Of a DNA stretch of 64,000 nucleotides, positions 40,170 to 56,284 are shown in pieces. The DNA is from Marixanthomonas sp. SCSIO 43207 (lineage in GTDB: Bacteria > Bacteroidota > Bacteroidia > Flavobacteriales > Flavobacteriaceae). The notes beneath the pieces are model-generated. The model ran no database searches and was not told the DNA's origin. It saw nothing but the letters and a program-made list of their open reading frames with translations. The position numbers were made by a program, and so were the translations under genes. The stretch spans positions 2,674,501-2,738,500 of the forward strand of contig NZ_CP063203.1 of assembly GCF_019904255.1 (NCBI RefSeq), written 5' to 3'. Positions within the stretch are counted from its first letter, which is position 1; each line of letters begins with the position of its first letter.

Positions 40170-40254
40170 GGAGAAATGGCAGAGTGGTCGAATGCGGCAG
40201 TCTTGAAAACTGTTGAGGGTCACACCTCCGGGGGTTCGAATCCCTCTTTCTCCG
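40170..40254 (+). tRNA. tRNA-Ser (anticodon TGA)
   Basis: 85-base class II tRNA. The acceptor stem GGAGAAA/TTTCTCC closes with discriminator G, the anticodon loop CTTGAAA gives TGA, a long variable arm follows, and the T-loop contains GTTCGAATC. The 3' CCA is not encoded. The gene is the attachment site of the genomic island; its 3' end is repeated at 56228-56250. Confidence 0.95.
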
Positions 40255-40256
40255 CT
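40234..40256 (+). other. attL: 23-bp core in tRNA-Ser 3' end
   Basis: The sequence from GTTCGAATCC to CTCCGCT is identical to 56228-56250. Between the two copies lie the integrase and cargo, so this is the left junction of an integrated element of about 15,994 bp (one core counted). Confidence 0.92.
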
Positions 40257-40257
40257 G

Positions 40258-40291
40258 AAAAGCCCGTAAACGTAATGTTTATGGGCTTTTT
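40258..40291 (+). terminator. element-borne terminator after tRNA-Ser
   Basis: AAAAGCCCGTAAAC pairs with GTTTATGGGCTTTT around GTAAT, followed by T. It stands immediately behind attL and so serves the interrupted tRNA gene. A sequence-related hairpin follows attR. Confidence 0.85.
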
Positions 40292-40299
40292 CAATTTTG

Positions 40300-40320
40300 G
40301 GGGCATATTGAGGGGCATAA
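40300..40320 (+). repeat. left arm-type repeats of the integrase
   Basis: GGGGCATA occurs at 40300-40307 and 40312-40319, 12 bases apart. The same pair and spacing is found inside the right end (56097-56119), so these are candidate arm sites for the recombinase. Confidence 0.6.
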
Positions 40321-40325
40321 TTATT

Positions 40326-40586: not shown

Positions 40587-40631
40587 ATTCCAAAAATAGG
40601 AATATTTCCTATATATTAAATAGAAAAATTA

Positions 40632-40853: not shown

Positions 40854-41768
40854 TTATTTACCTGTTAATTTACGGTATTTTTTAATAATTAGATCTATAC
40901 CTTTTTTAAAATGTTTTATGCGTTCTTGTTTACTCATTTCTTCTGCTTCTTTTCTGTTATTAGAATACAAAAGTAAATCACTCTTAAAATAATTCCAGTA
41001 ATACTTATAGCCGTCAAAATTTATTTCATCTTTACCTGCATCCCATATCTCATAAAGCTCTTTACGTTGTGCAGTTGATAAATCAAATTCTATTTTAATT
41101 CTCATATACTCAAATACTATATGGATATTATCATAGTAATTTTCACAATAACAAGTGTAATCGTAGTCACTTACCTTTAAAGGAATAAATTTTTTGTTCA
41201 GAAAATAATTGTTTAACAATCTGCAATTTTCCTCGGTTAGTTCTTTGTTAGTTTTTAAAATATCAATTTCGAAACCATTGGTTTTATAATAAGAGTTTAC
41301 ACGTTCTAAAGTTCCGCTTTTTACAATATCACATAACTCGAAAATAGTATCATAAAAAACTTCTGGATCATCGTAATCTAATTGAAAAGAATTTTCTGGA
41401 GATTCAAAATATTCATTGTAGAACAGAACGCCCATTTCTCGGTTATTTTCTTCGGAATATTCGTATAAATTCATTGATCCGATGATTAGAAGTGTACCGT
41501 TATAATAGCATTTACAATGAATATTTGGATGGTGTAATAAATTCAACTTGTTTAATTCAAGTATTTTTTCCTTTTGAACATTAGATAATTTATTTTCTCT
41601 ATATACAATGGTTATTGCCACTCCGTTTTTATCTGCTTTTTTAAGTGCTTTAAATATAGGTTTGGATATTTTAATGTAAGGAACCACTAAAACTAGTTCT
41701 TTTTCACTTGTTGCGATTAATTTGGGCAACCATTCGTTTAACTTGGGGGTGTTTAAAAATAGGGGCAT
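40854..41768 (-). CDS. PLD-like (HKD) nuclease-domain protein
   Basis: Protein of 304 residues. Its N-terminal 130 residues form one phospholipase-D-type domain: LVLVVPYIKISKPIFKALKK, then the HKD variant HCKCYYNGTLLIIGSMNLYEYS (H and K at about 85-87, with a serine/asparagine pair) and NREMGVLFYN. The C-terminal half has no obvious family. A single HKD domain normally works as a dimer and can be a nuclease, as in the restriction enzyme BfiI. It ends only 13 bases after the restriction-modification gene upstream, so it may be a partner nuclease or helper. Confidence 0.75.
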   Translation of the reverse strand: MPLFLNTPKLNEWLPKLIATSEKELVLVVPYIKISKPIFKALKKADKNGVAITIVYRENKLSNVQKEKILELNKLNLLHHPNIHCKCYYNGTLLIIGSMNLYEYSEENNREMGVLFYNEYFESPENSFQLDYDDPEVFYDTIFELCDIVKSGTLERVNSYYKTNGFEIDILKTNKELTEENCRLLNNYFLNKKFIPLKVSDYDYTCYCENYYDNIHIVFEYMRIKIEFDLSTAQRKELYEIWDAGKDEINFDGYKYYWNYFKSDLLLYSNNRKEAEEMSKQERIKHFKKGIDLIIKKYRKLTGK

Positions 41769-41781
41769 TCAGTATTCTGTT

Positions 41782-44700
41782 TTATATAAGTTCAATTTTA
41801 TCAATTTCTTTCATAATGCGATCGGTCTCTGTGAGGGCGACAATTATTTTTTGATAGTGTAGAATATCATCATAGCTCAACTCTCGATCCCTTCTATCTT
41901 TTAACCATTTTTGAGCGGGTTGGTAGCCACCTATGTAAAACTCCCAAGCTTTTAAGGGTACATTGTCAAAATATTGTTGGTCGTTGATCCAAACCTTGCC
42001 GGTTGTTTCGGTGGTTCCTTCATATCCTATGGAGGTTTTTGTAAGCTTTCTTGTAACCATATTATCACCATCTTCGGGGTAACTGGTTATAAACTCTTCT
42101 ACTTTTGGGCTTTCTAATAGGTGTATTTCACGCAACTCACCGCCCAACCTAACTAGTTGCCAAAAGGTTGTTTTATCATCTGGGTATGGTACTCTTGGGA
42201 AATCTATTTTTAAAAACTCTTTATAGGTTTCCCGGTAGGTTGGTGAATGTAACACGCCATAAATATAATCGAGCAAATCCAGCGGAGTAAAAAACGGGTC
42301 GCCTTCTTTTTCCAGACGTTCTCTTGCTTTTTCAATAGTTTCGCCTTTTTTTGGTAACTCTGGCGGGGTAAGTAAACCTTCCGGGGCAAAAGGTAGTTCG
42401 AGTTGTTCTTCAATCTTTTTTACGATATCCATATCGAGATTGGGAACACGTTCTTTTATATCGCCATCTGAGGTTTTAAAAATATCTTGGGTTTCGTTTT
42501 CCTTAGAATAAAGATATAATGGAGCGATACTTTCGGCTCCCTGCATACCAGATCGAGTCCACCCTCTGCGGTCTGATAATTTATTTACTATGAAAGTTGG
42601 TGGTGTATCACTTTGACTAAACCCTCTTTTTATTATTAACCCCATACTTCCAGATAATATATGTTCAAATGTGTTATAACTTGGTCTTCGTAAAATATTC
42701 GTGTCGTAATAAGAATACCTTATATCAAATGGACTATAACTAATTCTTTTTATTTTAATAGGATCATATATAGCCTTTTCTAATTCTGTCTTTAATTTAA
42801 AGCTTTTTGTGTCTTTTATTTTATATTCCCTATATACCTTTTCTCTTTCCAATAAGTCTGAATTTAAAACGTCTTTTATTTTATGTTCTAGTTTACTGGA
42901 AGAGTAATCAAGGAATAAACTATCACGCCCACTTTCAACTCCCGGGTTAAATTCTAGAAAAAGGTTAGACAGCAAAAAACCTTCTTCATAAATATCTTTA
43001 TTATCAAAGTTTTTTGGTTTAAAATAGTAGTGAGGTTTAACATTTTTAACTTCTATCCAAGAAAAATCTATAATTTTCGTTTCTCTTAAAATATTATATT
43101 TGTATTCTCTTTTACCATAAATTTCTTTATAAAAAACTGATCCCAAATCTGATCCTTTTTTATTTCCGTTTTTTACAAAAATATTAATCGAAACACCTTG
43201 CCTAATATCAAATACATTTTCATCTTTAATGTTTGATGGTATTGCTTCTTGTGTTCGACTATTACCGTGTAAATTAATTATATAGATTTTGTCAAAAGTG
43301 TTTAGTAGACTTTTACGCATTTGGCGATGTATAAGTCCATCGATAAAACTATTATTTGAAATATATGCTAAAATTCCACTTCCATTTTTATCTATATAAT
43401 GTTGTCCATATCTTATAAATTTCACATAATCATCTGACAAGGAGTTATAACTTCTTTCCTTTAAGCCTCGTTTATAATCGTCAATTAAAGATTCAATCCA
43501 CTGACCTTTATTTGTACTACTAACAGAGTAAGGTGGATTCCCCATCACCACCATCACGGGTGAATCCCGTTTAATATGGTTAGCTTCATTTGCTTCACTA
43601 CTTAACCAACCACTAAATAAGGTGCCGGTATCGGGATGATATTCTTCTAGGCTATTAGTAAGATATACTTTAAAGCGTTGGTCTATGGTGGGTTTATAAC
43701 CAGTTTCAGTAAGCAACAAATCTAATTTTAAATGTGCCATGGCATAACTAGCCATCAATATTTCAAAACCATTTAAGCGAGGGATCAAGTCTTTTTCTAC
43801 ATAGCCACTCCAAGCTCCTTGCATTTTTTTAAAGCGGTTGTTGTAAATATGGGTTATAACTTGCGCCAAAAAAGTACCGGTGCCGGTCGCTGGATCGAGT
43901 ATTTGTACCTTATGTACTTCTTGATCCACTTCTTTATAACCACTTTTATAATTTTTATTGGGAATATCGGTTTTAATCTTAACGGTTGTTTTACGGTTAT
44001 CAGCCAATCCGTTGGGAAGATCAAATTCGGTTTTTAAAATATCATCTACAGCACGTACTATAAAATCTACTACTGGTTCCGGTGTGTACCAAACGCCACG
44101 GGATTTTCGCAACTTGGGATCGTATTCTGCCAAGAAATCTTCGTAAAAGTGAATAATTGGATCTTGGCTTTGCCTTGCTTCACCATAATTAGTGAGCATT
44201 TTATTTACATCGGTTGCTCTAAATATATCAGCAAGATCACTAACTATCCATTCAATACGTTCGTCAATATCATAACCGGAAATATACTGAAACAACTTCC
44301 GTAGAAATGGGTTTGTTTTAGGTATCAAGCTTGCAGCTTCGTGTCTGGAAAAATTTTCTGGTGTTGGATCGTGCAAGCGAGCTGCAAACATTCCGTAGGC
44401 AATGGTTTGGGCATAAATGTCTGCAAATTCCTTAGGCGTAATATCGTGGATCAATATTTCCTTAAAGGCTAACATCTGTTCTTTTAAAGAACTGTTTTGT
44501 TTGGTTTCTTCATCGCTGTTTAAGGCATTTTCAATTACTTGTGCTAACATTCGGGCTTTTCCAGCCATCATTTTAGATAGTTTGGACGAAGATTTAATGC
44601 TTTGCCCTATGTAGGTTGTAAAATCAACTATAAGGGCTGTAAAGTGTTCAAAGTTTTCTGTTTTAGGGACTATCTTGCCATCAACAATTTCTGCCAATTG

Positions 44701-45048
44701 TATCGTGGTCGTTAATTCGCCTTGGTTGTAAAAATGAAAGTCTAAATAATCGGTGAATATTAAATTATCCAAAGAATCTTTATAGCGATTAAATTGCCTT
44801 TTATTTTTCTTTTTACCGTCCAGATCGGGATCACCTACATCTTTTGCTTCAATATAGCCAACTGGAATTTGCCCTTTTGTTATTACATAATCGGGCGCAC
44901 CGCAAGCTTGTCTTTTAGGCTCGTTGGTTGCTGAAATTTTAGGATTGATTTGTTCTATTAATAGTTGTAGATCACCTCGAAAGGTATGCTCGGTTGCGTT
45001 CCCCAACTTGTAGCGTTGGTTTACTTTTTCGATATACTCCCTAATCAT
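41782..45048 (-). CDS. type IIG/ISP-like restriction-modification enzyme
   Basis: Protein of 1088 residues combining nuclease, methyltransferase and target recognition. The N-terminal PD-(D/E)XK site is at D53 and EAK at 67-69 (GAPDYVITKGQIPVGYIEAK). A helical spacer (about 150-300) leads to YTPEPVVDF. The gamma-type N6-adenine methylase has motif I DPATGTGTF at 385-393 and the catalytic NPPY at 504-507. The C-terminal part, about 700-1088, is the likely target-recognition region. No helicase motifs are seen, so it resembles type IIG enzymes or the methylase half of type ISP. It is the leading gene of a leftward cluster with the PLD protein. Confidence 0.85.
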   Translation of the reverse strand: MIREYIEKVNQRYKLGNATEHTFRGDLQLLIEQINPKISATNEPKRQACGAPDYVITKGQIPVGYIEAKDVGDPDLDGKKKNKRQFNRYKDSLDNLIFTDYLDFHFYNQGELTTTIQLAEIVDGKIVPKTENFEHFTALIVDFTTYIGQSIKSSSKLSKMMAGKARMLAQVIENALNSDEETKQNSSLKEQMLAFKEILIHDITPKEFADIYAQTIAYGMFAARLHDPTPENFSRHEAASLIPKTNPFLRKLFQYISGYDIDERIEWIVSDLADIFRATDVNKMLTNYGEARQSQDPIIHFYEDFLAEYDPKLRKSRGVWYTPEPVVDFIVRAVDDILKTEFDLPNGLADNRKTTVKIKTDIPNKNYKSGYKEVDQEVHKVQILDPATGTGTFLAQVITHIYNNRFKKMQGAWSGYVEKDLIPRLNGFEILMASYAMAHLKLDLLLTETGYKPTIDQRFKVYLTNSLEEYHPDTGTLFSGWLSSEANEANHIKRDSPVMVVMGNPPYSVSSTNKGQWIESLIDDYKRGLKERSYNSLSDDYVKFIRYGQHYIDKNGSGILAYISNNSFIDGLIHRQMRKSLLNTFDKIYIINLHGNSRTQEAIPSNIKDENVFDIRQGVSINIFVKNGNKKGSDLGSVFYKEIYGKREYKYNILRETKIIDFSWIEVKNVKPHYYFKPKNFDNKDIYEEGFLLSNLFLEFNPGVESGRDSLFLDYSSSKLEHKIKDVLNSDLLEREKVYREYKIKDTKSFKLKTELEKAIYDPIKIKRISYSPFDIRYSYYDTNILRRPSYNTFEHILSGSMGLIIKRGFSQSDTPPTFIVNKLSDRRGWTRSGMQGAESIAPLYLYSKENETQDIFKTSDGDIKERVPNLDMDIVKKIEEQLELPFAPEGLLTPPELPKKGETIEKARERLEKEGDPFFTPLDLLDYIYGVLHSPTYRETYKEFLKIDFPRVPYPDDKTTFWQLVRLGGELREIHLLESPKVEEFITSYPEDGDNMVTRKLTKTSIGYEGTTETTGKVWINDQQYFDNVPLKAWEFYIGGYQPAQKWLKDRRDRELSYDDILHYQKIIVALTETDRIMKEIDKIELI

Positions 45049-45408
45049 ATTTTGCTAGTAGTTGAATTAGGGAAAAAAGATACGTTATTTAGGTGTAACC
45101 ATTAAACCTATGTAAGAAAATCATAGCGCAACTAGTTAAGTTGGCTGTTTGCAACTAAGTAAATTGTCGAATTGCAACTGTTAAGGTTCTTTGTTGCAAC
45201 TTGGGTGGTTTTTTTGAGATTTTGTTTAAAACAATCTTAATAGAATAATTTTCATATATTTGAAAACATACTCCCCTATTTTTATTTTAGCCTTAAATAA
45301 ATAATATATAAACGCAATTGTGTTTATATAGACGTTGTGGGTAATGTAAGGACACAATCAACATTTGAACAAAAATTAAAGTAATATCTTTATAAGTAAA
45401 AAAATAAA
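45049..45408. promoter_or_regulatory. divergent region with GCAACT iterons and cassette-like hairpin
   Basis: The 360-base gap holds two structures. Four GCAACT direct repeats start at 45128, 45151, 45174 and 45196 (about 23-base period), just upstream of the restriction gene. Nearer the ABC operon there is a near-palindrome TATATAAAC-N8-GTTTATATA (45305-45330) followed by GACGTTGTGGG, resembling the right end of the 49637 and 51033 repeats. Confidence 0.6.
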
Positions 45409-46263
45409 ATGACCAAATACACAAAATTTTTAGGACTAATAGCTATAGCATTATTTCTAATAGCCTGTAACGGAAATAAAACCGAAACAAATACTACCGA
45501 ATCCAAGTATGACAAAATCATAGAAAGCGGAAAAATAAAGGTTGGTTACATTTCTTATCCACCAAGTTTTATAGTTGGTGCAGACGGAAATAAATCTGGA
45601 ATATTCTATGAGGTTATGGAAAAAATTGGAGAGAATTTGGGTCTTGAAATTGTCTATCAAGAAGAAGTAACTTGGGATGGAATGATAGAATCTGTAAAGC
45701 AAGGGAAAATTGATATGGTTGTTACAGGTATTTGGCCTACAAGTCAAAGAGGTAAACACGTAGATTTTGCAAAACCTCTTTTTTATAGTGTTGTGAAAGC
45801 ATATACTGCATATGGAAATGATAAGTTTGATAACAACCTTGACGCAATTAACTCTTCTGATGTTATAATCTCTACAATTGATGGAGAAATGACCTCAATA
45901 ATCGCAAATTTTGATTTTCCAAAAGCAAAACAACAAGCAGTAACACAACTTACAGGCGTTTCTCAAACATTGTTGGAGATTAAATCTAAAAAAGCAGATG
46001 TTACTTTTGTCGAACCTGCAATTGCATTAGAGTTTGCGAGTAAAAATCCAAATTCAATTCAAGAAGTTAAAGGAGTCGAACCGTTAAGAGTATTTCCAAA
46101 TTCAATGCTATTGCCTAAAGGTTCAGTTAAATTAAGAACTACACTTAATATTGCAATTGAAGAACTTCAAAATAATGGGTTTGTAGATAAGGTAATTGCC
46201 AAATATGAAAAATATCCAAATTCTTATTATAAAGTACAATCACCTTATAAATCTAACAATTAA
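45409..46263 (+). CDS. ABC amino-acid-type substrate-binding lipoprotein
   Basis: Protein of 284 residues with a lipobox (FLIACNGN; cysteine about residue 20) and a bacterial extracellular solute-binding family 3 fold: KIIESGKIKVGYISYPPSF, GIFYEVMEKIGENLGLEI, then GKIDMVVTGIWPTSQRGKHVDFAKPLF, IEELQNNGFVDKVIAKYEKYP. Members bind polar amino acids or similar small molecules. Its stop overlaps the permease start as TAATG, so the four genes that follow are translationally coupled. It is the only lipoprotein of the island, probably anchored outside the inner membrane. Confidence 0.85.
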   Translation: MTKYTKFLGLIAIALFLIACNGNKTETNTTESKYDKIIESGKIKVGYISYPPSFIVGADGNKSGIFYEVMEKIGENLGLEIVYQEEVTWDGMIESVKQGKIDMVVTGIWPTSQRGKHVDFAKPLFYSVVKAYTAYGNDKFDNNLDAINSSDVIISTIDGEMTSIIANFDFPKAKQQAVTQLTGVSQTLLEIKSKKADVTFVEPAIALEFASKNPNSIQEVKGVEPLRVFPNSMLLPKGSVKLRTTLNIAIEELQNNGFVDKVIAKYEKYPNSYYKVQSPYKSNN

Positions 46264-46934
46264 TGTTTGAAACTACTTTTGACTTAATTGTTAAATATAA
46301 AGAAGCATTTGCAGGCGGACTATTAGTTACTACTAAACTTGCCTTAATCTCTTGGTTTTTAGGAATTACTATTGGTGCTTTTATTGGTGTGGTATCTTCT
46401 AAAAACAAAAAAATCATAGGAATACCATTTCAAATTATTTCAATTGTAATTACAAGTGTACCAATATTAGTATTTCTCTTTTGGTTACATTATCCCGCAC
46501 AAAGTATTTTAAATGTTGGCGTTCAACCATTTTATACGGCAACTTTTATGCTGACAATAATTAATATTATCGCAGTTTCTGAAATTGTGAAAAATGGCAT
46601 TTTGAATTTACCAAAACAATATTTAGAAGTTGCAAAATTATCTGGTTTGAGTAAAAAAAAGCAGATATTAAAAATTGAGTTTCCGCTAATTATTCGTCAT
46701 ATTTTACCTTCAATTTTAATGGCACAAGTAAACATTTTGCATATGTCATTATTCGCAAGTTTGATTTCAGTAAATGAGATATTTAGAGTTTCTCAAAGAG
46801 TAATTTCATTGGAGTATAAACCAGTAGAAATTTATATGGCACTTGGCATTTTCTTTTTGCTGATTTCCTTACCAATCAATTTAATCGCATTGTACTTCAA
46901 GAAAAAATATATTAGAGACATTTCCGAAAGATGA
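46263..46934 (+). CDS. ABC transporter permease, polar amino acid type
   Basis: Protein of 223 residues with about five membrane helices (LLVTTKLALISWFLGITIGA, IISIVITSVPILVFLFWL, TATFMLTIINIIAV, ILPSILMAQVNILHM and ALGIFFLLISLPINLIALYF). The EAA-type cytoplasmic loop is AKLSGLSKKKQILKIEFPLI, with the glycine and the I-LP pattern. It belongs to the His/Glu/Gln/Arg/opine (HEQRo) permease group. The single permease gene implies a homodimer with the ATPase. The stop overlaps the ATPase ATG by four bases (ATGA). Confidence 0.86.
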   Translation: MFETTFDLIVKYKEAFAGGLLVTTKLALISWFLGITIGAFIGVVSSKNKKIIGIPFQIISIVITSVPILVFLFWLHYPAQSILNVGVQPFYTATFMLTIINIIAVSEIVKNGILNLPKQYLEVAKLSGLSKKKQILKIEFPLIIRHILPSILMAQVNILHMSLFASLISVNEIFRVSQRVISLEYKPVEIYMALGIFFLLISLPINLIALYFKKKYIRDISER

Positions 46935-47635
46935 TAGTGGCCAAGAACATATCAAAGTATTATAGTCATAAAGAAGTCCTTAAAAACCTAAGCTTTAATT
47001 TAGACACCAATTCCATTACAGTTTTGTTTGGTCCAAGTGGAAGTGGAAAAACAACTTTATTACGGTGCTTATCTTTGTTGGACTATCCAGAGAGTGGAAA
47101 ATTAAACATTTTTAATAGTACTTACGATTTTAACAGCAAGCTAACTAAAAACATCAAACCAAATTCAAAAATCAATCTTGTATATCAACAATTGTTTCTC
47201 TATCCACATTTAACTAATCGTGAAAACATTTTGATTGCAATTGATGATTTCAATTCTTCTAAAAAAGAACTCTTTAAAAATTTAACAAAACTTCTTGAAA
47301 TAGAAGATGTTTTAGAAAATTACCCAAATCAATCTTCGTTAGGTCAAAAACAAAGAATTGCAATAGCAAGAGTGCTAATTCTTGAACCTGATTATATTCT
47401 TTTTGATGAAATAACAAGTGCGCTGGATATTGTTCAAACCAATAATATAATTCGTTTGATAAAGGATTTAAAAAACAAAGGTATTGGCTCGTTAATAGTA
47501 ACACACAATATGTACGTAATAAAAAAATTAGCTGATAAACTTGTTTTTATGCAGAACGGAAAAATAATTGAAGAAGGAGGTTCTGAAATTTTAAAAACAC
47601 CCACAACAGTAGAACTTAAATCCTTTCTAAAATGA
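46931..47635 (+). CDS. ABC transporter ATP-binding protein with variant signature
   Basis: Protein of 234 residues. Walker A GPSGSGKTT at 34-42, Q-loop YQQLFL about 85-90, signature SSLGQ (135-139) in place of the usual LSGGQ, Walker B ILFDEI (156-161) with isoleucine where proline is normal, and the H-loop in VTHN (about 190-193). It should drive the permease. The two changes in the signature and Walker B are unusual and may lower turnover. Its stop overlaps the next ATG (ATGA), so the methyltransferase fusion is co-translated. Confidence 0.85.
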   Translation: MIVAKNISKYYSHKEVLKNLSFNLDTNSITVLFGPSGSGKTTLLRCLSLLDYPESGKLNIFNSTYDFNSKLTKNIKPNSKINLVYQQLFLYPHLTNRENILIAIDDFNSSKKELFKNLTKLLEIEDVLENYPNQSSLGQKQRIAIARVLILEPDYILFDEITSALDIVQTNNIIRLIKDLKNKGIGSLIVTHNMYVIKKLADKLVFMQNGKIIEEGGSEILKTPTTVELKSFLK

Positions 47636-49629
47636 TTAAAGCATTTTTTAAAAGCCCAGAATTTAAAATAGCTGGTCTGATATTAGCTATCTTGATTGCA
47701 ACTTCATACTTTATAATTAAAGAAACGAGTTTTATAACCAATACTTTCAGCTATAATGAGTTAAGCCCGAATGACATAAACTCACTTGAAAATGTTTTAT
47801 CGTACATTGCCTATTTAACAATTACAGTTATTGGTATTTCTGTTGCTTATTACGTTTATTATATAACAGCTAAAATAGATAAGAATAAAGAACTTGTTAA
47901 AATTATAGACAAATCGGAAGTACCAGATTTAAAAAAAGAGATTTCGTCTCTTAAAAAAGACCTTAAAAAATTTGAAAAACCTAATCATATAATTCATAAA
48001 CGGTTTGAAAAAATTGTTAAAAAGAGATTGAAATATGTAGCCATAGACTACAAACCTTTCTTTTGGATAAAAGATGACGCAAAAAAAGAAACACCGAGTG
48101 GTATTGGTTACGAATTAATGAATAAAATTTTTGAACCTTTTAATGTAGAACTAATCAATGAAACACCATCAAGTGGTTACAGCTGGAAGTCTATTTTTGA
48201 AGACTTTTCAGGTGCAAAAAGACAAGAAATTGACTTCATTATGACACCAATGTATGAAACAAGAAGTCGGTTATATGATTATGATGTAATTTATAGCATT
48301 CCTTTATTTTACAGCGATATAGGCATATATGTGAAAGAAAATACAGAAACAGAGAACTTGAAGTTATCTTATGATGACGCAATAACCTTTTTGAAATCGA
48401 AAAGAGATAGTAGTGAAAAGTGGGAGATTGAGTTTTTGGAAGGAGAAATATCGGAAATAGTTGGCAAAAAATCTATGTATGAAAAAGGAGATGAAAGAAG
48501 AAAACTTTCAGAGGACATTGCTAAAAGGTACAAATACAGAGATTTTTCAGAAAAATTAAATAATGTGTCGTCTGAAGATAAGACTACTGGAGACGTTATA
48601 TTAATGGAGATATTTAAAGCTCAATCAATTATTGACGAAGAGAATCTAAATATCGTCAATATTCTTAAAGACAATCAACTCGTATATCCTGTTTCATTTG
48701 TTATCCACAAGGAAGAAACTGTTTTGAGAAATTTTATAAATCTTCGTATTTCAGAATTAAAGTTTAATGGAGAACTACAAAGAATAATCAAAACCAATGC
48801 TCTTCAAATAGATTTAACTGATGAAAAAGTGATAGACAAGGTGTTTTTGCAAAATTATGACTTCACATTAATTGATAACAATTACATTAAAAAACGTTCT
48901 CGTTTTTCGGACAGAATGAGAGAGAAATTTGACTTGTTAGACAAGTTCTATGGCAATTATGGTTCCTTTCAAAAAAGTATAAAAAACACAATAGAGAACT
49001 TTAGAAAAGATGAGCCTTTAAATATTTTAGAAATTGGGTTTGGCTCTGGTCTAACAACAGAAGTTATTTTAGAAGCAAGAAAGAATAACAACGACAAAAT
49101 TACTGTTATTGATGACGATGTTTTTATGCAAGAGCAAATTAGAAAAAACAAAAACGTAAATCCCAAAAAGGTTTCAATAATAATAATTGATGTCATAAAA
49201 TATTTAGAAAGTGATGACCTCAAACCTTTTGATATGGTTGTTTCTGGCTATACTATTCATAATTTAACGAAACAACAAAGGGAAAAACTGTACGAATTAC
49301 TGTATAAAAATATGAGTGCTAATTCGATTTTTATCAATGCAGACAAAATTGCTCAAGACAAAGATGAAGAAAGAATTGAGGCTCTCAAATACAGGGTAAA
49401 TAAATACATTGATTATTTGAAAACAAATCCGGAAAAATACTTACTAATTGAGGAATGGGTTTCGCATTATATTGACGACCAAAGTGAGAATATTGTAATG
49501 AAAAGAACAGAAACTATTAATGCTTTAGCGGACAAAGGCTTTAAAAAAGAAAATATATCAATAGAAACACCAACTGATTTTGAAGAAAAAGAAATGATGG
49601 CGATATTAACCGCAAAGAAAACAGAATAA
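47632..49629 (+). CDS. membrane fusion of binding-protein-like domain and SAM methyltransferase
   Basis: Protein of 665 residues. Two membrane helices (about 11-30 and 55-80) are followed by a charged coiled-coil (about 84-128), a type-3 solute-binding-like domain (about 132-390: YVAIDYKPFFWI, IGYELMNKIFEPF, IDFIMTPMYETRSRLYDYDV, GELQRIIKTN) and a class I methyltransferase domain (about 455-665, motif I LEIGFGSG at 466-473, acidic VIDDD, then DMVVSGYTIHNL). The positive residues flanking the helices put both large domains in the cytoplasm. This order of domains is not one I recognise. Its start overlaps the ABC ATPase stop, so it works with the transporter, perhaps modifying or sensing the imported compound. 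Confidence 0.78.
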   Translation: MIKAFFKSPEFKIAGLILAILIATSYFIIKETSFITNTFSYNELSPNDINSLENVLSYIAYLTITVIGISVAYYVYYITAKIDKNKELVKIIDKSEVPDLKKEISSLKKDLKKFEKPNHIIHKRFEKIVKKRLKYVAIDYKPFFWIKDDAKKETPSGIGYELMNKIFEPFNVELINETPSSGYSWKSIFEDFSGAKRQEIDFIMTPMYETRSRLYDYDVIYSIPLFYSDIGIYVKENTETENLKLSYDDAITFLKSKRDSSEKWEIEFLEGEISEIVGKKSMYEKGDERRKLSEDIAKRYKYRDFSEKLNNVSSEDKTTGDVILMEIFKAQSIIDEENLNIVNILKDNQLVYPVSFVIHKEETVLRNFINLRISELKFNGELQRIIKTNALQIDLTDEKVIDKVFLQNYDFTLIDNNYIKKRSRFSDRMREKFDLLDKFYGNYGSFQKSIKNTIENFRKDEPLNILEIGFGSGLTTEVILEARKNNNDKITVIDDDVFMQEQIRKNKNVNPKKVSIIIIDVIKYLESDDLKPFDMVVSGYTIHNLTKQQREKLYELLYKNMSANSIFINADKIAQDKDEERIEALKYRVNKYIDYLKTNPEKYLLIEEWVSHYIDDQSENIVMKRTETINALADKGFKKENISIETPTDFEEKEMMAILTAKKTE

Positions 49630-49636
49630 AACACTT

Positions 49637-49768
49637 CCCACAACAATGGCTATAAGTAATTGCTTCTACTCGCCTACTTTGGAAATTCCTGCGGAATTTC
49701 CAACTCGGTGTGTACTTGCAAAGTTAAATGCTAAACCACGCAACTACTCATAGCCGAAACCGTTGGGT
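49637..49768 (+). repeat. attC-like double-hairpin repeat A (132 bp)
   Basis: Outer arms GGCTATAAGTAATTGC and GCAACTACTCATAGCC pair with two mismatches; the left flank is CCCACAAC and the right flank is GTTGGGT. Inside is a perfect hairpin GGAAATTCC-tgc-GGAATTTCC at 49681-49701. Repeat B at 51033 has the same plan with different stem bases. Confidence 0.75.
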
Positions 49769-49793
49769 GTAAGCTAAATCGAACTGCTGAAAA

Positions 49794-51026
49794 ATGAATA
49801 AAAATTCGATTAATGAAATTCTAACTCTAAACAATTCTTATAAAAATTGGAGAATCAAAGAAACAAAAAAGAAATTTTTACTTTCTATGAATCTATTGGA
49901 GAATTTTTCTTCGGTTTATGAAATTGAATTGAACAAATTACCTTACAGATTAAATCTTCTTGACGATTTATCAACTAATGAAAATGCACATAGTAAATTC
50001 TTAATAAGACTTTTACAATATCAACCTGCTCTAATAAATTTTTTAAAATTTATTAATACTAAAAATAAACATCATTTTTCATTCGACATTAATATTATAA
50101 ATAAACCAATATTAACTTATGAAAAAATGAGAATTGACGGTTTAATTAAAGAGAATAATAAATATGCAATTATTATAGAAAACAAAATACATAATGCAGT
50201 TGAACAAGAACATCAAATTGGAAGATATATAGAAAAATGTAAGTCAATAGGATTTAAAAAAGAACAAATATTTGTTCTTTATTTAACAAAAACTGAAAAA
50301 GATAATCATTCAGAGCAAACTTGGGGAGAAGAATATAATTTATCAGATTTTAAAACAAGATATTCTAAAATATCATACAAATCAACAATACTTCCTTGGC
50401 TTGAAAGCTACTTGAAAGTTTTGTCTAAAAAAGAAGAATTAATAAAAAGTGCTATTATACAATACATTGACCATTTAAAACATTTTTTTAATAAGAAAGA
50501 AATATACTTAAATATGAACAAAGAACTACAATCTTTTTTATCTACAGAGTTAGAACTGAATACAGATAATATTGAGAATATTGCAGTTATTAGTAAGAAA
50601 ATTGATGAAATTAGCGAACTAAAAGAGCAACTTGAAAAACTGGAAAGAACTTCAAAGGAAATGTTATTTAAAGAGTGGAAAAATAATTTAGATGAACGTT
50701 TTAATTTTGAGGAAAATCAGAAATTTAACCAATCTAAAGATTCATTTATAAAAACAGGAGTTATTTTACATTACAAAGACAAACCTTTCTCTGTTTTAAT
50801 CGAACATAATTTTAAATCAACATACATTGGCATTGGAAGGCATTTTGCAAGTGAAACTTTGGATTCTGAAATTAAAGAACTTTTAGACCTTATTGTTAGT
50901 AAAGAATCTTTGAAAGAAGAATATCCTTGGTGGTATGGCTGGAAATACAGTTCACTTAATGATGGTTATTCAGATTTTGAAAACTTATTAAAGTTAATAA
51001 TTGAAAAAATAAATTCGGAAAAATAA
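49794..51026 (+). CDS. PD-(D/E)XK nuclease family protein (PDDEXK_4-like)
   Basis: Protein of 410 residues. After NENAHSKFLIRLLQYQPAL, typical of the PDDEXK_4 group (Pfam PF14281), the nuclease site is in MRIDGLIKENNKYAIIIENK (aspartate about residue 114 and ENK about 126-128), then EQEHQIGRYIEKC. The helical middle (about 250-300) precedes a domain with GWKYSSLNDGYSDFENLL. Such proteins are frequent in defence islands, with unknown biochemistry. It is flanked on both sides by attC-like repeats, so it resembles a single-gene cassette. Confidence 0.82.
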   Translation: MNKNSINEILTLNNSYKNWRIKETKKKFLLSMNLLENFSSVYEIELNKLPYRLNLLDDLSTNENAHSKFLIRLLQYQPALINFLKFINTKNKHHFSFDINIINKPILTYEKMRIDGLIKENNKYAIIIENKIHNAVEQEHQIGRYIEKCKSIGFKKEQIFVLYLTKTEKDNHSEQTWGEEYNLSDFKTRYSKISYKSTILPWLESYLKVLSKKEELIKSAIIQYIDHLKHFFNKKEIYLNMNKELQSFLSTELELNTDNIENIAVISKKIDEISELKEQLEKLERTSKEMLFKEWKNNLDERFNFEENQKFNQSKDSFIKTGVILHYKDKPFSVLIEHNFKSTYIGIGRHFASETLDSEIKELLDLIVSKESLKEEYPWWYGWKYSSLNDGYSDFENLLKLIIEKINSEK

Positions 51027-51032
51027 GCCTAC

Positions 51033-51165
51033 ACCCAACACTGTATATAATTTATTGCTAGTTCTAGCCTACTTGCGAAAATCCTTGCGGATTTTCTATT
51101 CGGTTTTCATTTGCTAAATTAGGTGCTTAAAACACGCAACAAATCATATACAAACACGTTGGTTG
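51033..51165 (+). repeat. attC-like double-hairpin repeat B (133 bp)
   Basis: Arms TGTATATAATTTATTGC and GCAACAAATCATATACA pair with two mismatches; outer flanks are ACCCAAC and GTTGGTT. The inner hairpin is GAAAATCC-ttgc-GGATTTTC at 51077-51096. It shares CACGCAAC and the architecture and size of repeat A. Confidence 0.75.
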
Positions 51166-51194
51166 TAATATTGGAGCAAAAACGAAAATAATAA

Positions 51195-51761
51195 ATGATA
51201 AAGTTTTATTTAAAAGCAAAACATTGGCAATTATTTCTTCTAATGTTAGGTATACCGCTATTTTTTGAATTTCTAGTAATACTCGATATTGGTATTTTCA
51301 ATGTTTTTCCGATAATAATGCTTCTTTTTATTGGAGTTCTGTTTGGATGGTTTTGGTCAATTGCAATTGGGCTTCAAAAATACGTCCCGCAAGAAATAAG
51401 GATGAAAGTTAAAAAATTCAAGGTCTTTTTTTTTATTCCGTTAATTTACATGGTTTTCCTGACAATTTATATGAGTGGAATTTTTTCCGAAATTGGAATT
51501 AATGGATTCTCTAAAAGTGGTTGGATTGTAGCGATTATATTACCACTTCACCTATTCTCTATGTTTTCCATTTTTTATTCAATCTATTTTGTTGCGAGAA
51601 CATTAAAGACAGTCGAATTACAGAGAAAAGTTGGATTCGGAGATTATGTAGGTGAATTTTTTATGATTTGGTTCTATTTCATTGGAATGTGGATTATTCA
51701 ACCAAAAGTGAATAAGCTATATCGAAATGGAAACACTACAGCCAACAAAGAACTAAAATAA
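51195..51761 (+). CDS. four-helix membrane protein (cassette-like gene)
   Basis: Protein of 188 residues with four hydrophobic helices (LFLLMLGIPLFFEFLVIL, MLLFIGVLFGWFWSIAI, KVFFFIPLIYMVFLTIYM and IVAIILPLHLFSMFSIFYSIYF) and a final FMIWFYFIGMWIIQPKVN. Its last turn ends in a hydrophilic tail. I have seen similar short membrane proteins in Flavobacteriaceae without assigned function. It starts 29 bases after repeat B, as in a cassette. Confidence 0.65.
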   Translation: MIKFYLKAKHWQLFLLMLGIPLFFEFLVILDIGIFNVFPIIMLLFIGVLFGWFWSIAIGLQKYVPQEIRMKVKKFKVFFFIPLIYMVFLTIYMSGIFSEIGINGFSKSGWIVAIILPLHLFSMFSIFYSIYFVARTLKTVELQRKVGFGDYVGEFFMIWFYFIGMWIIQPKVNKLYRNGNTTANKELK

Positions 51762-51812
51762 AAATCACCCTTAAGATGTATAAATAAAACTTGATAATAA
51801 AAGTTAGAATAT

Positions 51813-51979
51813 TTGTTGATTTGTTGAAATGTCTCATAAACCCTAACCAATAAGGTTATATACGTTCAACAGAATGTCAACAAGAATCATATTTTGTTTT
51901 GTTGAATGTTTGTTGATTTTAAAAAGCTTGTAAAATACCAAATACGCAAGCGTGCTTTTTAATTTCAACAATTCAACAT
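51813..51979. repeat. paired TTGTTGA iterons, possible origin
   Basis: TTGTTGA-type heptamers (with at most one change) lie in four pairs: 51813 and 51821; 51866 and 51877 (inverted); 51899 and 51910; 51965 and 51973 (inverted). The last pair overlaps the end of the primase-helicase gene. Confidence 0.6.
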
Positions 51980-53173
51980 ATTTTTAATGAATTGCTTCTC
52001 GAAACTAAAATACCTACCTTTTTTATTTTGAACAGATACTTGCCACGTATTTGTTGATGGATCAATTGATTTATAATAATGATTATAACTACTGTTTTTG
52101 TGTTCAATTTTCCATTTATCTATTACTACATTGGCAATTTCTCTTCTCGAGACTTTATGTCTAGCATCGTTAAAAAGGTTAATAATATCTGAATAAGAAA
52201 GATCAAGTGTTTCAACTTCAAAATCCTCAAACATTTCATCTAACAAGAGAATCAATTCTTTTTCGAAGAAAAACTTAGTACCTCGTTTTATAATTTCTAA
52301 GGCTTCAGTATGTATTTGTTCCTTCGTAAACCACATTCGGGTTTTTCTATTCGTTGAATAACTTCTGTTTGACATAAAGTCTAAAAAATAAGGTAACTCA
52401 TCTTTTAAAATTTCTTCTAGGTCTGGATCTGGCTTATCGATTTGTGGTATTTTCCGTACCCAAAATCTAATTTCCTTATCATCAACCAATATAAAGTTGC
52501 GTTCGTGGTTTGAACAAAGAATAAACTTTCCAAAAAAGTTTGTTTCTACTTTGTCTTTGCCTTTTGCTTCAGTTTTATAGGTTTTAGCAGTAGATAGATT
52601 CTTTATTCGTTCACTATCTTCCCTTTTTTCTAATAAAACTTCTTCAATTGCAACAATCAGTTTTTCTGACCAATCAGCATTAAACCGGCTCCTGAAATCT
52701 TCATTTTTATTGATTGTCATATTATCTTGAAAAATAAGTTTTAACCAATTTAAGAAGGTGGTTTTACCGGTGTTTCGCTCCTCGCTTACCAAACAAAGTA
52801 TTGGCAATATTTGAGTAGGCTTATTCCATAAAATTGAAATATAATCTAATCCTAGTTGTAGTTGATCTCCAAATATATGTTCTAAAAAACCCAATGTTTT
52901 AGGTATAGAACCATCTGTATATGTGGCATCAAAGCTATGGGTTAACGGCATATATCGATTGTAAAATCCTTTTACAGTTTTTTTATAATCAATATGTGCG
53001 GGTTGAACGGTAAAGCCTTCGTATTTGGGAATTTCCCTAATATAGTCTTTACTGTGGTCGTCAATTATGGTGTGCCGTTTCCATTTCACAATTGATGGAG
53101 CTACACTCCCATCGATTAAAGGTCGTTTTACTATTTTGTAATACTCTGTTCCTATTCTTAAATACTCCATCAT
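51965..53173 (-). CDS. primase-helicase (superfamily 3, DUF5906-like)
   Basis: Protein of 402 residues. Walker A-type motif SEERNTGKTTF at about 130-140, Walker B-like VAIEEV about 183-188, and motif C FILCSNHERN about 220-230 (asparagine of SF3 helicases). A C-terminal winged-helix-like region (about 320-402) contains SRREIANVVIDKWK. It resembles mobile-element replicative helicases. TTGTTGA repeats at its 3' end are candidate binding sites. It overlaps the next gene by 4 bases (ATGA). Confidence 0.83.
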   Translation of the reverse strand: MMEYLRIGTEYYKIVKRPLIDGSVAPSIVKWKRHTIIDDHSKDYIREIPKYEGFTVQPAHIDYKKTVKGFYNRYMPLTHSFDATYTDGSIPKTLGFLEHIFGDQLQLGLDYISILWNKPTQILPILCLVSEERNTGKTTFLNWLKLIFQDNMTINKNEDFRSRFNADWSEKLIVAIEEVLLEKREDSERIKNLSTAKTYKTEAKGKDKVETNFFGKFILCSNHERNFILVDDKEIRFWVRKIPQIDKPDPDLEEILKDELPYFLDFMSNRSYSTNRKTRMWFTKEQIHTEALEIIKRGTKFFFEKELILLLDEMFEDFEVETLDLSYSDIINLFNDARHKVSRREIANVVIDKWKIEHKNSSYNHYYKSIDPSTNTWQVSVQNKKGRYFSFEKQFIKNMLNC

Positions 53174-53484
53174 TTCGCAATATTTAAGTGAATCTTAGAA
53201 AATCTTCCCATATCAGGATTTTTCTTAATAGAAACTTGTAAAGTAACCCCGTGCATAGTCGGGTCCTTTTTATACATTTCATTTATTAACCACTCCATAT
53301 TGGCATTGCTCAATGAGGGTTTCTTTTCAAGTTGGGATTTAAAGTATTGTAATAATTCTATTTGCTCAACTTGATAAGTTTTTTCATTCTTTCGAAGATT
53401 AACTAATTCTAGCCTTCTATATGCATTGATTAATAACCTATCAATTAGGTGTTCAAAAAACGGGTAAACTGTTTGGTAGCTCAT
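53170..53484 (-). CDS. hypothetical island protein, primase-region partner
   Basis: Protein of 104 residues, mostly helical, with a repeated charged pattern (HLIDRLLINAYRRLELVNLRKNEKTY in parts). Its 5' end touches the HTH gene stop and its 3' end overlaps the helicase start, so the three form a coupled unit. A counterpart with primase-associated function is possible but not shown. Not recognised. Confidence 0.55.
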   Translation of the reverse strand: MSYQTVYPFFEHLIDRLLINAYRRLELVNLRKNEKTYQVEQIELLQYFKSQLEKKPSLSNANMEWLINEMYKKDPTMHGVTLQVSIKKNPDMGRFSKIHLNIAK

Positions 53485-53771
53485 TATCTTTTATACTTTA
53501 AAGATTTAACTTCCTTTAAAGTAGCTTCGAGTTTTTTCCGGTTTATTAAAACCCGATTACCGATTTTATCAGCTTTAATAAGCCCGCGCTTAATGTAGTT
53601 ACGAACTGTGAGTTCAGAAACATTTAAAAATGTTGCTGTTTCACGAACGGAAAGGTTCTGATTCAGTTTTTCTTTTTCTCTTTTAGTAGAGTAAAACTGT
53701 TTTAGTGATTTTTGGACAGAGGTCTGTACTAACTCTTCGAGATCCTCTTGTTTGGTTATGATTATTTTCAT
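53484..53771 (-). CDS. excisionase-like helix-turn-helix protein
   Basis: Protein of 95 residues. After a helical N-terminus, NLSVRETATFLNVSELTVRNYIKRGLIKADKIGNRVLINRK (in parts) is a MerR/excisionase-type HTH with a wing, matching the helix_turn_helix_17 family. Such proteins steer integrase towards excision in Bacteroidetes elements. It sits between the unknown gene and the helicase unit. Confidence 0.82.
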   Translation of the reverse strand: MKIIITKQEDLEELVQTSVQKSLKQFYSTKREKEKLNQNLSVRETATFLNVSELTVRNYIKRGLIKADKIGNRVLINRKKLEATLKEVKSLKYKR

Positions 53772-53882
53772 ACTACAAATCTCAAGAAGATTGATTTTAG
53801 AACAATTTGGTAAAATTGTTAAAAAATAAAATAATAAACCGCTGTAAGCCAGTTTAATACATATAGCTTAAAGTCTTTGTGT

Positions 53883-54860
53883 TTAAGTTTTGTTTAGGTA
53901 AGAAGTAATAATTTGTGTGTTATTTAATAATTCAATAGTATTTTTTATGTCATTGTGTATTTTGTTATGCTTATCTAATGCTTGTTTTATAGTATTTAGT
54001 TTCTTGATTTCAATACTATCTCCATATCTAGTTTTACCTTGTTTCGAAATATATCTTATTTTATGTTTAACCCATTCGATATATTCATCTCTGAATCCTT
54101 GATAAAATTTTTGCAACAATCCTAAAAATAAATCTAAATCAGGTTTGGTAAATTCAGTGTTTTTCAAATCAAAAATTATAACTTCACTAGATCCTAAAAA
54201 ATTTAAAAAGAAATTTAAATCATCTGAGGGTTTTAATAATTTATGAGAGTTTAAAAAATGATATAAATACATTATTGAAATGATATTTAAATCAAAATCA
54301 TTAGGGTGAAATGTATTATCAATATCTACATTTTGATTTTCCAATTTTACTATTCTTTCTCTTAGTAATCTAATAAAAGTTTGCTCAAAAAATGGATGTT
54401 CAATAATTTCATTAGAGGGCATTCCTTTCGGCAAAGCTTTTTTATTATAATCTGGATAATGAATTACTTCATTATAGTAGAATATTTTAAAAAGAATATT
54501 TTCTATCTCATTGAGAAGGTCATCGAGACTAGAATTATCAATATTTCGAATCAAATAACAACTAAGATTCTGAATATATTCATCATCGAAAGGTTCAAGA
54601 GCAAACCAAAAAATTGGATGCCTAGATAATTTAAGCAATTCGTTTTTAGAATTTATATAGAAATCTAAAGTGGCTAAATTGTAATCTTCAATAGTCGTGC
54701 TTACAGAGTAGTTTAATTCAAAATATGGATCTAATCGATCTTTTATATTGTTTGTTTTTTGTATTTCGGCAAGCTTTTTAGCTTTGGAATATTTTTCAAA
54801 AAATTTATCTTTCAGGTTTTTACACGAAAATTCAGTTTGGGCTATTTTATAAAAATCCAT
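53883..54860 (-). CDS. unrecognised protein beside the integrase
   Basis: Protein of 325 residues, soluble and largely helical, with leucine-rich stretches (LLNEIENILFKIFYYN, LNFFLNFLGSSEVIIFDLK, LFLGLLQKFYQGFRDEYIEWVKH). The C-terminus is a helical tail (KLNTIKQALDKHNKIHNDIKN). No nuclease, methylase or helicase motif is visible. Its start ATG overlaps the integrase stop by one base, so it is co-transcribed with the recombinase. It may be a recombination helper or cargo. Function unknown. Confidence 0.55.
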   Translation of the reverse strand: MDFYKIAQTEFSCKNLKDKFFEKYSKAKKLAEIQKTNNIKDRLDPYFELNYSVSTTIEDYNLATLDFYINSKNELLKLSRHPIFWFALEPFDDEYIQNLSCYLIRNIDNSSLDDLLNEIENILFKIFYYNEVIHYPDYNKKALPKGMPSNEIIEHPFFEQTFIRLLRERIVKLENQNVDIDNTFHPNDFDLNIISIMYLYHFLNSHKLLKPSDDLNFFLNFLGSSEVIIFDLKNTEFTKPDLDLFLGLLQKFYQGFRDEYIEWVKHKIRYISKQGKTRYGDSIEIKKLNTIKQALDKHNKIHNDIKNTIELLNNTQIITSYLNKT

Positions 54861-56092
54861 TAACTCCAGGCTTTATTCATTTCTTCTTCCCTTATTTTTT
54901 TGGAAAGCTTAATATACTTTTTAAAACTGCTATAACTTTTATGTCCAGTAATACTCATAACAATATCTGGGCGCATTCCTTTTTCAAGTGAAAGAGTAAT
55001 AAAAGTTCGTCTAGCAGTATGTGTGCTAATCATTTTATATTTCGGGATCACTTCTTCTATTCTTTCATTTCCAATAAAAGACGTTTTTACAATATCCTCA
55101 TTAAAATCAACTACTTTACAAGCTTCTTTTATATATTCTCTAAATTTTTGTGGGCTTATTATAGGTAGGTTGTAATCATACTTTTCAAGTATTTCTTTTG
55201 AATACTTGTTTAAAGGAATACCCAAATTACTTTTTTGCTTTGTAGTATTGATGAATATTTGACCATCTCTTATATTTCTTTTACTTATTCTAGAGTAATC
55301 TGAGTACCGCATTCCTGTTGAACATCCAAAAATAAAAACATCAACCACTTTCCGTAATCTATTTGTTTTAAATTTATGAGTGTATAATTTTTCTAGTTCA
55401 GTGAATGAAAGTGCTACTTCATCCGTATCGCTGGAAACCTTTTCAAAATTCTTAAAATCTAAATTTCTGTGGTACTTTTTCATTACCGCCCAATTCATAA
55501 AAGTTTTTATAAAACCAATATTCCTTCCAAGAGTATTATTCTTATGTCTTAATGTCTTTCTACTATACTTCACAAATTTGATGTAAAAGTCATTATTGAT
55601 TCTATTGAAAGTTAAATTATACTTTTCTGCAATAGAAAAATCTTCAAGTACCGATTTAATGTTTTCGTATCGACCAATCGTGCCCGTTGTTATTTTTCCT
55701 AAATCTTTTTTCTCTTGAATAAATTCATTGAATACATTAAAAAACGATTTTGGAGCCGTAGTAAATTTTTTGAATTGATAATCTAATTCTGCTTTAATTA
55801 GATTTACGGTTAATTCTGTTCCTTCTGCTTCAATCTTCGAACAAATCAACTGAAAAGCTTCCCCATATCTTGACAATTGATTTATAATTGAATTAACTTG
55901 AATTGCTTTGGTTGTACGACCTTTTATTTTTTTCGGAAATTGTAATTCTTTGTCCCAGTTCTTTGGCTCAATCTTTTCACCAGTAGAATATTTCAAATAT
56001 TTATTTTCGGCTTTTATTCTTGCCCTTAAATAAATAAGAGTTGGTTTAGTACTGTTCGGGTCCTTGAGATTAAAAGTGTAGGAGTAATTCAT
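54860..56092 (-). CDS. tyrosine recombinase (site-specific integrase)
   Basis: Protein of 410 residues with an N-terminal SAM-like arm domain (about 100-210) and a C-terminal catalytic domain. Catalytic residues visible are R262 (STGMRYSDYSR), H358 and R361 (THTARRTF), H384 (GHKSYSSF) and Y393 (KKYIKL). It carries out integration into the tRNA-Ser gene, since it lies next to attR. Direct repeats flanking the element ends are candidate arm sites. Confidence 0.92.
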   Translation of the reverse strand: MNYSYTFNLKDPNSTKPTLIYLRARIKAENKYLKYSTGEKIEPKNWDKELQFPKKIKGRTTKAIQVNSIINQLSRYGEAFQLICSKIEAEGTELTVNLIKAELDYQFKKFTTAPKSFFNVFNEFIQEKKDLGKITTGTIGRYENIKSVLEDFSIAEKYNLTFNRINNDFYIKFVKYSRKTLRHKNNTLGRNIGFIKTFMNWAVMKKYHRNLDFKNFEKVSSDTDEVALSFTELEKLYTHKFKTNRLRKVVDVFIFGCSTGMRYSDYSRISKRNIRDGQIFINTTKQKSNLGIPLNKYSKEILEKYDYNLPIISPQKFREYIKEACKVVDFNEDIVKTSFIGNERIEEVIPKYKMISTHTARRTFITLSLEKGMRPDIVMSITGHKSYSSFKKYIKLSKKIREEEMNKAWS

Positions 56093-56096
56093 TACA

Positions 56097-56227: not shown

Positions 56228-56250
56228 GTTCGAATCCCTCTTTCTCCGCT
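56228..56250 (+). other. attR: 23-bp core, tRNA-Ser 3' fragment
   Basis: Identical to 40234-40256. It is a fragment of the tRNA 3' half without the rest of the gene, and marks the right boundary of the island. Confidence 0.92.
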
Positions 56251-56284
56251 AAAACCTGTAAACCAATTGTTTACAGGTTTTTTT
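56251..56284 (+). terminator. ancestral tRNA-Ser terminator
   Basis: AAAACCTGTAAAC pairs with GTTTACAGGTTTT around CAATT with a T tract. It is probably the original terminator of the tRNA gene, displaced by the insertion. Confidence 0.85.

Follow-up and report, generated by a model that had tools for sequence, protein, structure and literature searches.

A candidate import-and-sense operon with a membrane-tethered binding protein–methyltransferase fusion in Marixanthomonas sp. SCSIO 43207

Introduction

Polar amino-acid ATP-binding cassette (ABC) importers with a GlnQ/ArtP/HisP-like ATPase consist of a lipoprotein solute-binding protein (SBP), the product of a single permease gene and an ATPase. 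Here, we describe an operon with the same three components at positions 45409-49629 of a 64,000-nucleotide stretch, termed the window (positions 2,674,501 to 2,738,500 of contig NZ_CP063203.1, assembly GCF_019904255.1), of Marixanthomonas sp. SCSIO 43207, a flavobacterium whose genome is a single contig of 2.96 Mb. As in these importers, an Arg and an acidic residue align with those of solved amino-acid SBPs. Unlike them, the window system has an additional, inner SBP domain, which is fused to a class I methyltransferase. The parts are known protein families, and their combination points to an undescribed import-and-sense system with a putative function, because in a relative (locus L024) the inner SBP domain is joined to an immune-type domain instead. 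From the sequence we describe the operon, its domains, the topology predicted for the window protein by charge, a ligand signature, the swapping of partners, and a mobile, defence-rich setting.

Other described systems resemble single parts of this one. CBASS/Pycsar systems with a CAP12-type TIR resemble L024, which encodes a PF10137 TIR protein together with a weakly matching TIR-like domain that is joined to a domain of the ligand-binding type; the CAP12-type TIR is found in this relative and not in the window. They differ in that no cyclase family was detected among the window and L024 operon proteins scanned, in the SBP-fold sensor and in the attached importer. In Micavibrio, Obscuribacterales and alphaproteobacterial metagenome-assembled genomes (MAGs), plain SBP-permease-ATPase operons share the permease family (~43-55% identity), but their lipoproteins are in tandem, neither an inner SBP nor a TIR was found in them, and, at nine loci, their flanks are not defence-like. 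A methyltransferase-like gene is located nearby in L031, and possibly in L071; the L031 gene (10671-11528) separates the permease from the tandem lipoproteins, the operon being otherwise that of a plain importer. CmoA/MM_2633-like class I methyltransferases are among the best matches of the methyltransferase-group profile, but the window enzyme is fused to an SBP domain. MADS was rejected, as the mad gene set was absent: the matches were confined to the ATPase (mad3, 2.7e-32) and the L024 methyltransferase (mad2, 5.3e-11), each covering part of the model.

Operon structure and importer proteins

The four plus-strand genes (Table 1) overlap successively by 1, 4 and 4 bases (TAATG, ATGA and ATGA), which confirmed the reading of the first-pass annotation, a note made from the letters and their open reading frames (ORFs) alone. 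The lipobox of the first protein was assigned by eye to Cys20, and the solved structure nearest to its family profile was AncCDT-1 (5t0w). The permease has the stretches PILVFLFWLHYP and LFASLISVNEIFRVSQ in common with that of L024, and is 56%, 50% and 42% identical to those of the related loci L028, L024 and L081, respectively. SBP_bac_3, BPD_transp_1 and ABC_tran occur together in this one operon, the combination by which a polar amino-acid-type ABC importer is recognized. Unlike in the named importers, no NCBIfam match listed for the four proteins reached its cut-off, so that the importer was assigned to no named substrate family; for the ATPase, among the best 25 of 193 matches, ArtP scored highest with 195.5 bits against a cut-off of 369. 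The importer presumably carries an amino-acid-like compound. A match to the Bacteroidota-type promoter pattern at 45364-45391 was discounted, as the window contains 6 such matches against 6.05 expected.

The inner binding domain and the methyltransferase

Pfam and hydropathy agreed with the first-pass annotation that the fourth, 665-residue protein joins two helices, a coiled coil, a second SBP-like domain and a class I methyltransferase. The numbers of Lys and Arg against Asp and Glu were 3/1 before helix 1, 1/4 between the helices and 12/8 after helix 2 (residues 79-120). On these counts and the positive-inside rule, both ends of the fusion are predicted to be cytoplasmic, and hence also the coil, the SBP domain and the methyltransferase, as the annotation had proposed. 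A full-length AlphaFold model from a three-row alignment had a pLDDT of 36.6 and was not used.

The inner and outer SBP domains of the operon matched each other with an E value of 1e-6 and 29% identity. A model of the inner domain, built from an alignment of the window and related-locus proteins only, had a pLDDT of 84.5 and a pTM of 0.82. Foldseek analysis, the check proposed for this region by the annotation, placed amino-acid SBPs in the lead, with 5t0w as the best match (E = 3.4e-14) followed by the tryptophan-bound SBP 9e2b.

To examine the ligand signature, 112 SBP ORFs from permease loci were aligned, including the four inner domains known to us (window, L024, L028 and L081). In the numbering of the window lipoprotein, the position of W109 was aromatic in 98/112, that of R114 was Arg in 84/112, that of G159 was Gly in 105/112, that of D197 was Asp in 111/112, and that of E202 was Glu or Asp in 83/112. 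Aligned with the lipoproteins, the series aromatic-x4-Arg, Gly-Glu, Asp and Glu/Asp was kept in all four inner domains; in the window domain it comprises Y208, R213, G271-E272, D321 and E326. In the profile alignment, R114 and E202 of the lipoprotein correspond to Arg and Asp, respectively, in AncCDT-1 (5t0w), which we take to be the residues binding the amino acid backbone. The Trp, Tyr or Phe that precedes the Arg by four residues in the present proteins is Thr in AncCDT-1, and their Gly-Glu is Gly-Thr-Thr. Since the ligand residues are kept at an overall identity of ~15-27%, they argue for binding by the inner domains rather than decay.

Methyltransf_25 matched residues 465-558 with 28.2 bits against a cut-off of 27, and the glycine-rich motif ILEIGFGSG was found at residue 465; profile and motif together place the domain among class I S-adenosylmethionine (SAM) methyltransferases. 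It was 27% identical to the L024 methyltransferase (7e-29, pairwise BLAST). The profile of the methyltransferase group was closest to 3dtn, 9fcs and CmoA (4gek), and DNA methylases were not nearest. The methyltransferase profile used to search the related loci was built from the very genes it then found, and for relationships only pairwise BLAST values are used.

Related loci

Apart from the protein itself, no full-length relative of the fusion was found in 397 family genomes or 395 phylum genomes (single-domain matches only in both), none among genome contigs, viral contigs and phages, and none in plasmids, where two records matched the methyltransferase domain only. Of the 395 phylum genomes, 36 gave a match, in nearly every case limited to the methyltransferase domain and with an E value of 5.6e-10 or weaker; in genome G637, a methyltransferase matched at 1.4e-24 and an SBP lies nearby, which is locus L024. 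A match in G608 was rejected as a histidine kinase by eye. The permease scan of genome contigs gave 64 loci, most of which, on inspection of the importer genes in these runs, looked like plain operons, often with more than one lipoprotein. At 1e-40, the permease was matched in only 2/395 phylum genomes (the window's own and G637) and 2/341 genomes of the class of G637 (G637 and G802); therefore, the system is rare. Viral contigs gave nothing with the permease or helix-coil-SBP alignments, nor with the TIR-SBP protein of L024, and plasmids gave no match at thresholds of 1e-20 for the permease, 1e-8 for the TIR-SBP protein and 1e-5 for the two helix-coil-SBP proteins.

L024 encodes, in this order, a 242-aa methyltransferase, a 148-aa CAP12/Pycsar TIR protein (PF10137, 1.9e-23), a 437-aa TIR-like/SBP protein, a lipoprotein, a permease and an ATPase, the last three being 43%, 50% and 43% identical to those of the window. 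The SBP part of the 437-aa protein matched the adjoining lipoprotein at 1.3e-7, and hydropathy indicated no membrane helix in it. The letters FELG, which we take to be catalytic in TIR proteins, are kept in both the TIR protein and the TIR-like/SBP protein. L028, in a Chlorobiota MAG, and L081, in a proteobacterial MAG, each combine the importer with a helix-coil-SBP protein lacking a methyltransferase (421 aa, 26% identity to the window protein, 2e-20; and 464 aa, 26%, 3e-14, respectively). Both repeat the two-helix and coil layout of the window protein.

Further loci hold other partners. L082 (11404-13672), which belongs to an Ignavibacteriales MAG and is the same locus as L027 of genome G802, and L083 (6352-8919) have the importer followed by a methyltransferase, a membrane protein and a second methyltransferase, the latter on the other strand in L083; the two pairs of methyltransferases are 50% and 60% identical. 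L084 has a stand-alone methyltransferase of the window's group (1e-15), and L075 has a different methyltransferase together with a Xan_ur_permease and a 642-aa protein. This 642-aa protein (13426-15354) and a 637-aa protein of L080 (10796-12709) follow the importer and share a segment of ~100 residues (1e-7). Neither has a Pfam domain over the cut-off, and they are possibly another kind of partner. In the permease tree, the window and L028 were sisters (100/95), and loci with extra genes were clustered (5 changes against a shuffled mean of 9.6; 0/500 shuffles as low) though not in one clade; long branches make these placements unsure.

The first-pass annotation had regarded the operon as the best candidate here for an undescribed system, and had named in advance homologues keeping only one domain as refuting it. 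For the exact fusion such homologues exist (L028 and L081 for the binding domain, L024 and L084 for the methyltransferase), and the fusion was thus abandoned as the defining feature, while an importer, an inner SBP domain and an enzyme recur together. The annotation had also suggested uptake of an amino-acid-like compound followed by sensing and methylation. An amino-acid-type importer and an inner binding domain are present and sensing is likely, but methylation is not the constant output, because L028 and L081 lack a methyltransferase, that of L024 and L084 stands alone, and L024 has a TIR-like domain.

Proposed function and alternatives

We propose, with a probability of about 0.43, that the operon is the import-and-sense module of a conflict system, probably directed against phages or competitors. 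The outside lipoprotein would capture an amino-acid-like compound, and the permease and ATPase would bring it into the cell. The second SBP-fold domain, anchored in the same membrane through two helices and linked to them by a coil, would bind the ligand in the cytoplasm, and its closure would switch the attached or adjoining output: the class I methyltransferase in the window, and the TIR-like domain, a putative NADase, in L024. Import, binding of the imported ligand by the inner domain, control of the output by this binding, the substrate of the output and protection of the cell are steps that we infer.

The proposed module accounts for inner SBP domains adjoining this importer family in four loci. 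The same domains could instead serve metabolic trapping, in which the inner SBP passes the imported compound on for modification by the methyltransferase, preventing its exit from the cell, as part of a nutrient or detoxification pathway. We consider this unlikely, although the SBP and methyltransferase lie within one chain, the methyltransferase profile is nearest to 3dtn, 9fcs and CmoA and not to DNA methylases, and methyltransferase genes are near the importer in the window, L024, L031, L075, L082, L083 and L084. Sensing is preferred because the inner SBP occurs without a methyltransferase in view in L028 and L081 and is joined to a TIR-like protein, not a methyltransferase, in L024. The L028 contig ends 44 bases past the gene, and a methyltransferase could follow; in L081 the next gene is on the other strand.

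Tethering at the membrane, the overlap of the fusion gene with the ATPase gene, and the enzyme-free proteins of L028 and L081 would also fit a feedback gate (trans-inhibition), in which the tethered SBP gauges the internal ligand and closes the importer, the methyltransferase being incidental. We judge this somewhat less likely than trapping, and prefer sensing because gating leaves the TIR and methyltransferase partners and the defence neighbours unexplained. An ordinary amino-acid importer beside a decaying duplicate SBP and a methyltransferase without joint function would fit the mostly plain permease loci, many with tandem SBPs by inspection, and the uniqueness of the exact fusion in what was searched, but is the least probable explanation, as the helix-coil-SBP layout recurs at separate loci and the ligand residues are kept in 4/4 inner domains.

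The conflict role of the proposed module draws on the neighbourhood. The restriction enzyme and PDDEXK nuclease noticed in the first-pass annotation are indeed present (type IIG, 1089 bits; PDC-S26, 2.2e-31), and the defence or signalling setting that it suggested is supported. L080 is flanked by Avs2 (1226 bits) and AbiEi/AbiEii, L081 by a relaxase and AbiEi/AbiEii, L082 by HEC-05/GmrSD and a DNA methylase, L083 by GAP1 and double GTPases, and L075 by a 1877-aa N6-methylase/helicase. At 0.001, PADLOC gave no match for the L083 GAP1 protein or the 642-aa and 637-aa proteins of L075 and L080. With PADLOC at E<=1e-20, at least 10/62 flanking proteins at 8 system loci matched (type IIG, PDC-S26, Avs2, AbiEi twice, AbiEii twice, HEC-05, a type III methyltransferase and HEC-01A), against 1/89 (GlgB) at 9 plain importer loci. 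The former count was taken from the best 25 of 65 PADLOC families for the 62 proteins, each one protein, and from separate locus scans, with the HEC-01A, HEC-01B and type III methyltransferase matches carrying no locus assignment; the plain set covers 89/193 proteins and 9/19 loci.

Several observations weigh against the proposed module. The Fisher value per protein for the flanks was 0.0006, but proteins that share a locus are not independent observations, and the taxonomic make-up of the two sets differs; per locus, 4/8 against 1/9 was not significant (p = 0.11). The defence link rests on neighbourhood, the flanking genes of L024 appear by eye to be housekeeping-like, and among the proteins of the operon PADLOC matched the ATPase only, not the SBP, the permease or the fusion protein. 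Both matches of the 437-aa L024 protein, N-terminal TIR-like PF10137 (0.0013) and C-terminal SBP_bac_3 (0.0036), are below the Pfam cut-offs, and this TIR-SBP protein was found in one genome only (1/335). In L028 and L081 no enzyme is visible, so that a mere transport regulator is possible; charge leaves their topology unsettled (net charge before helix 1, in the loop and after helix 2 of 0/+2/+1 and +2/0/0, respectively), and their proposed inside location follows from homology to the window protein. The lipoprotein positions Y47 and D158 are not conserved in all inner domains. No such import-and-sense system was found in the literature searched, which lay mostly outside subscription journals and preprints.

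A broader proposal, possible but doubtful, is that these loci form a new class of prokaryotic immune or communal-alarm systems. In these, a small amino-acid-like cue, for example from dying neighbours, would enter by a dedicated ABC importer and be read by an SBP-fold receptor relocated from the periplasm to the cytoplasmic side of the membrane. Effectors that can replace one another (a TIR NADase or a methyltransferase) would then be triggered, and the complete unit would travel as a multi-gene integron-like cassette. If the import-and-sense proposal is true, an SBP sensor fold would stand behind TIR-type or methyltransferase outputs; to our knowledge, the SBP fold is a sensor in no such system. 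It would also couple defence to the uptake of an outside compound, as a reaction to a chemical cue and not to the phage itself. The four loci, whose related inner binding domains are paired with a methyltransferase, with a TIR-like domain or with no enzyme in view, form a compact testable set.

Genomic setting

The operon lies in an island of ~16.0 kb that extends from the 3' end of a tRNA-Ser(tga) gene to a direct repeat (Table 1). The 23-base core of the repeat has two copies in this genome, one copy in 3/6 congeners and no exact copy in the other 3. The DUF5906 protein of the island is presumably primase/helicase-like. In three congeners, the distance between the genes bordering the island (window 40170-56254) is ~62, 81 and 138 kb, and therefore the region varies much within the genus.

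Table 1 Features of the operon and the surrounding island in the window (Pfam and PADLOC values are E values unless given in bits).
Feature	Position	Strand	Evidence
SBP_bac_3 lipoprotein, outside binding protein	45409..46263	+	Pfam SBP_bac_3 2.2e-23
ABC importer permease	46263..46934	+	Pfam BPD_transp_1 3e-16
ABC importer ATPase, amino-acid type	46931..47635	+	Pfam ABC_tran 2.1e-27
Membrane-tethered SBP-methyltransferase fusion, 665 residues	47632..49629	+	Pfam, hydropathy, charge
Two predicted membrane helices, at residues 11-29 and 55-73, with charged coil up to residue 118	47662..47985	+	Hydropathy, charge
Inner SBP_bac_3 domain, residues 119-416	47986..48879	+	Pfam 2.3e-10 at residues 137-387
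Class I SAM methyltransferase domain	48874..49626	+	Methyltransf_25 3.1e-6
Short hairpin upstream of operon, possible reduced attC-like site (weak)	45304..45338	+	DNA fold of 45280-45345, z -2.4
attC-like site closing candidate cassette	49640..49765	+	nhmmer 85.2 bits, 1.5e-25 (model includes this site); DNA fold z -3.1
Second attC-like site, after PDDEXK gene	51036..51161	+	nhmmer 71.7 bits, 2.4e-21 (model includes this site)
PDDEXK_4 nuclease (PDC-S26-like), next candidate cassette	49794..51026	+	PDC-S26 2.2e-31 (PADLOC)
attL-like direct repeat, at end of tRNA-Ser(tga) gene 40170-40255 (ARAGORN)	40234..40260	+	26/27 bases identical to 56228-56254
PLD-like protein, island cargo	40854..41768	-	PLDc_2 4.4e-12; weak DrmC 1.6e-8 (PADLOC)
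Type IIG (ISP-like) restriction-modification protein, island cargo	41782..45048	-	Type_ISP_C 1.4e-78; PADLOC REase_MTase_IIG 1089 bits
DUF5906 protein	51965..53173	-	DUF5906 5.7e-21
HTH_17 protein	53484-53771		HTH_17 2.1e-10
Tyrosine recombinase of island	54860..56092	-	Phage_integrase 4.7e-11, Phage_int_SAM_5 2e-9
attR-like direct repeat	56228..56254	+	26/27 bases match 40234-40260

Both attC-like sites in the window are imperfect palindromes of ~126 bases with the ends CAAC...GTTG, and thus have the palindromic form and AAC/GTT ends of an integron cassette end. A BLASTN-type search detected 10 further copies of the first site in the same genome. The two window sites and their relatives were used to build an nhmmer model, which thus includes the scored sites and the array itself. 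It found an integron-like array at 1,220,514-1,303,457 with 74 attC-like sites, 70 of which were full length; all lie on one strand, with a median spacing of 753 bases. The longest ORF between sites was on the strand of the sites in 69/71 intervals counted, and a reversed-sequence control with this model gave 0 sites. A tyrosine recombinase gene (1,304,217-1,305,410) lies just past the array end on the same strand as the sites; its phmmer matches were XerA (1.3e-38) and, in two stretches, IntI4 (4e-32). In classical integrons the integrase gene is usually oriented opposite to the array, which differs from the orientation here. We regard the window sites as attC-like because their model finds a one-strand array beside a tyrosine recombinase. 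The operon may accordingly be a candidate cassette of ~4.4 kb, with only the short hairpin as its upstream boundary, which scored 0.3 and 1.9 bits in nhmmer.

The IntegronFinder 2.0 paper describes, for Bacteroidetes, earlier finds of In0 elements only and one complete integron in Salinibacter ruber (PMC9024848), and a review names Bacteroidota among the phyla with integrons (PMC8618304). A literature search over titles and abstract openings found no paper naming such an array in Bacteroidota. Two more diverged attC-like copies, one of them partial, lie off the array at 2318167-2320450.

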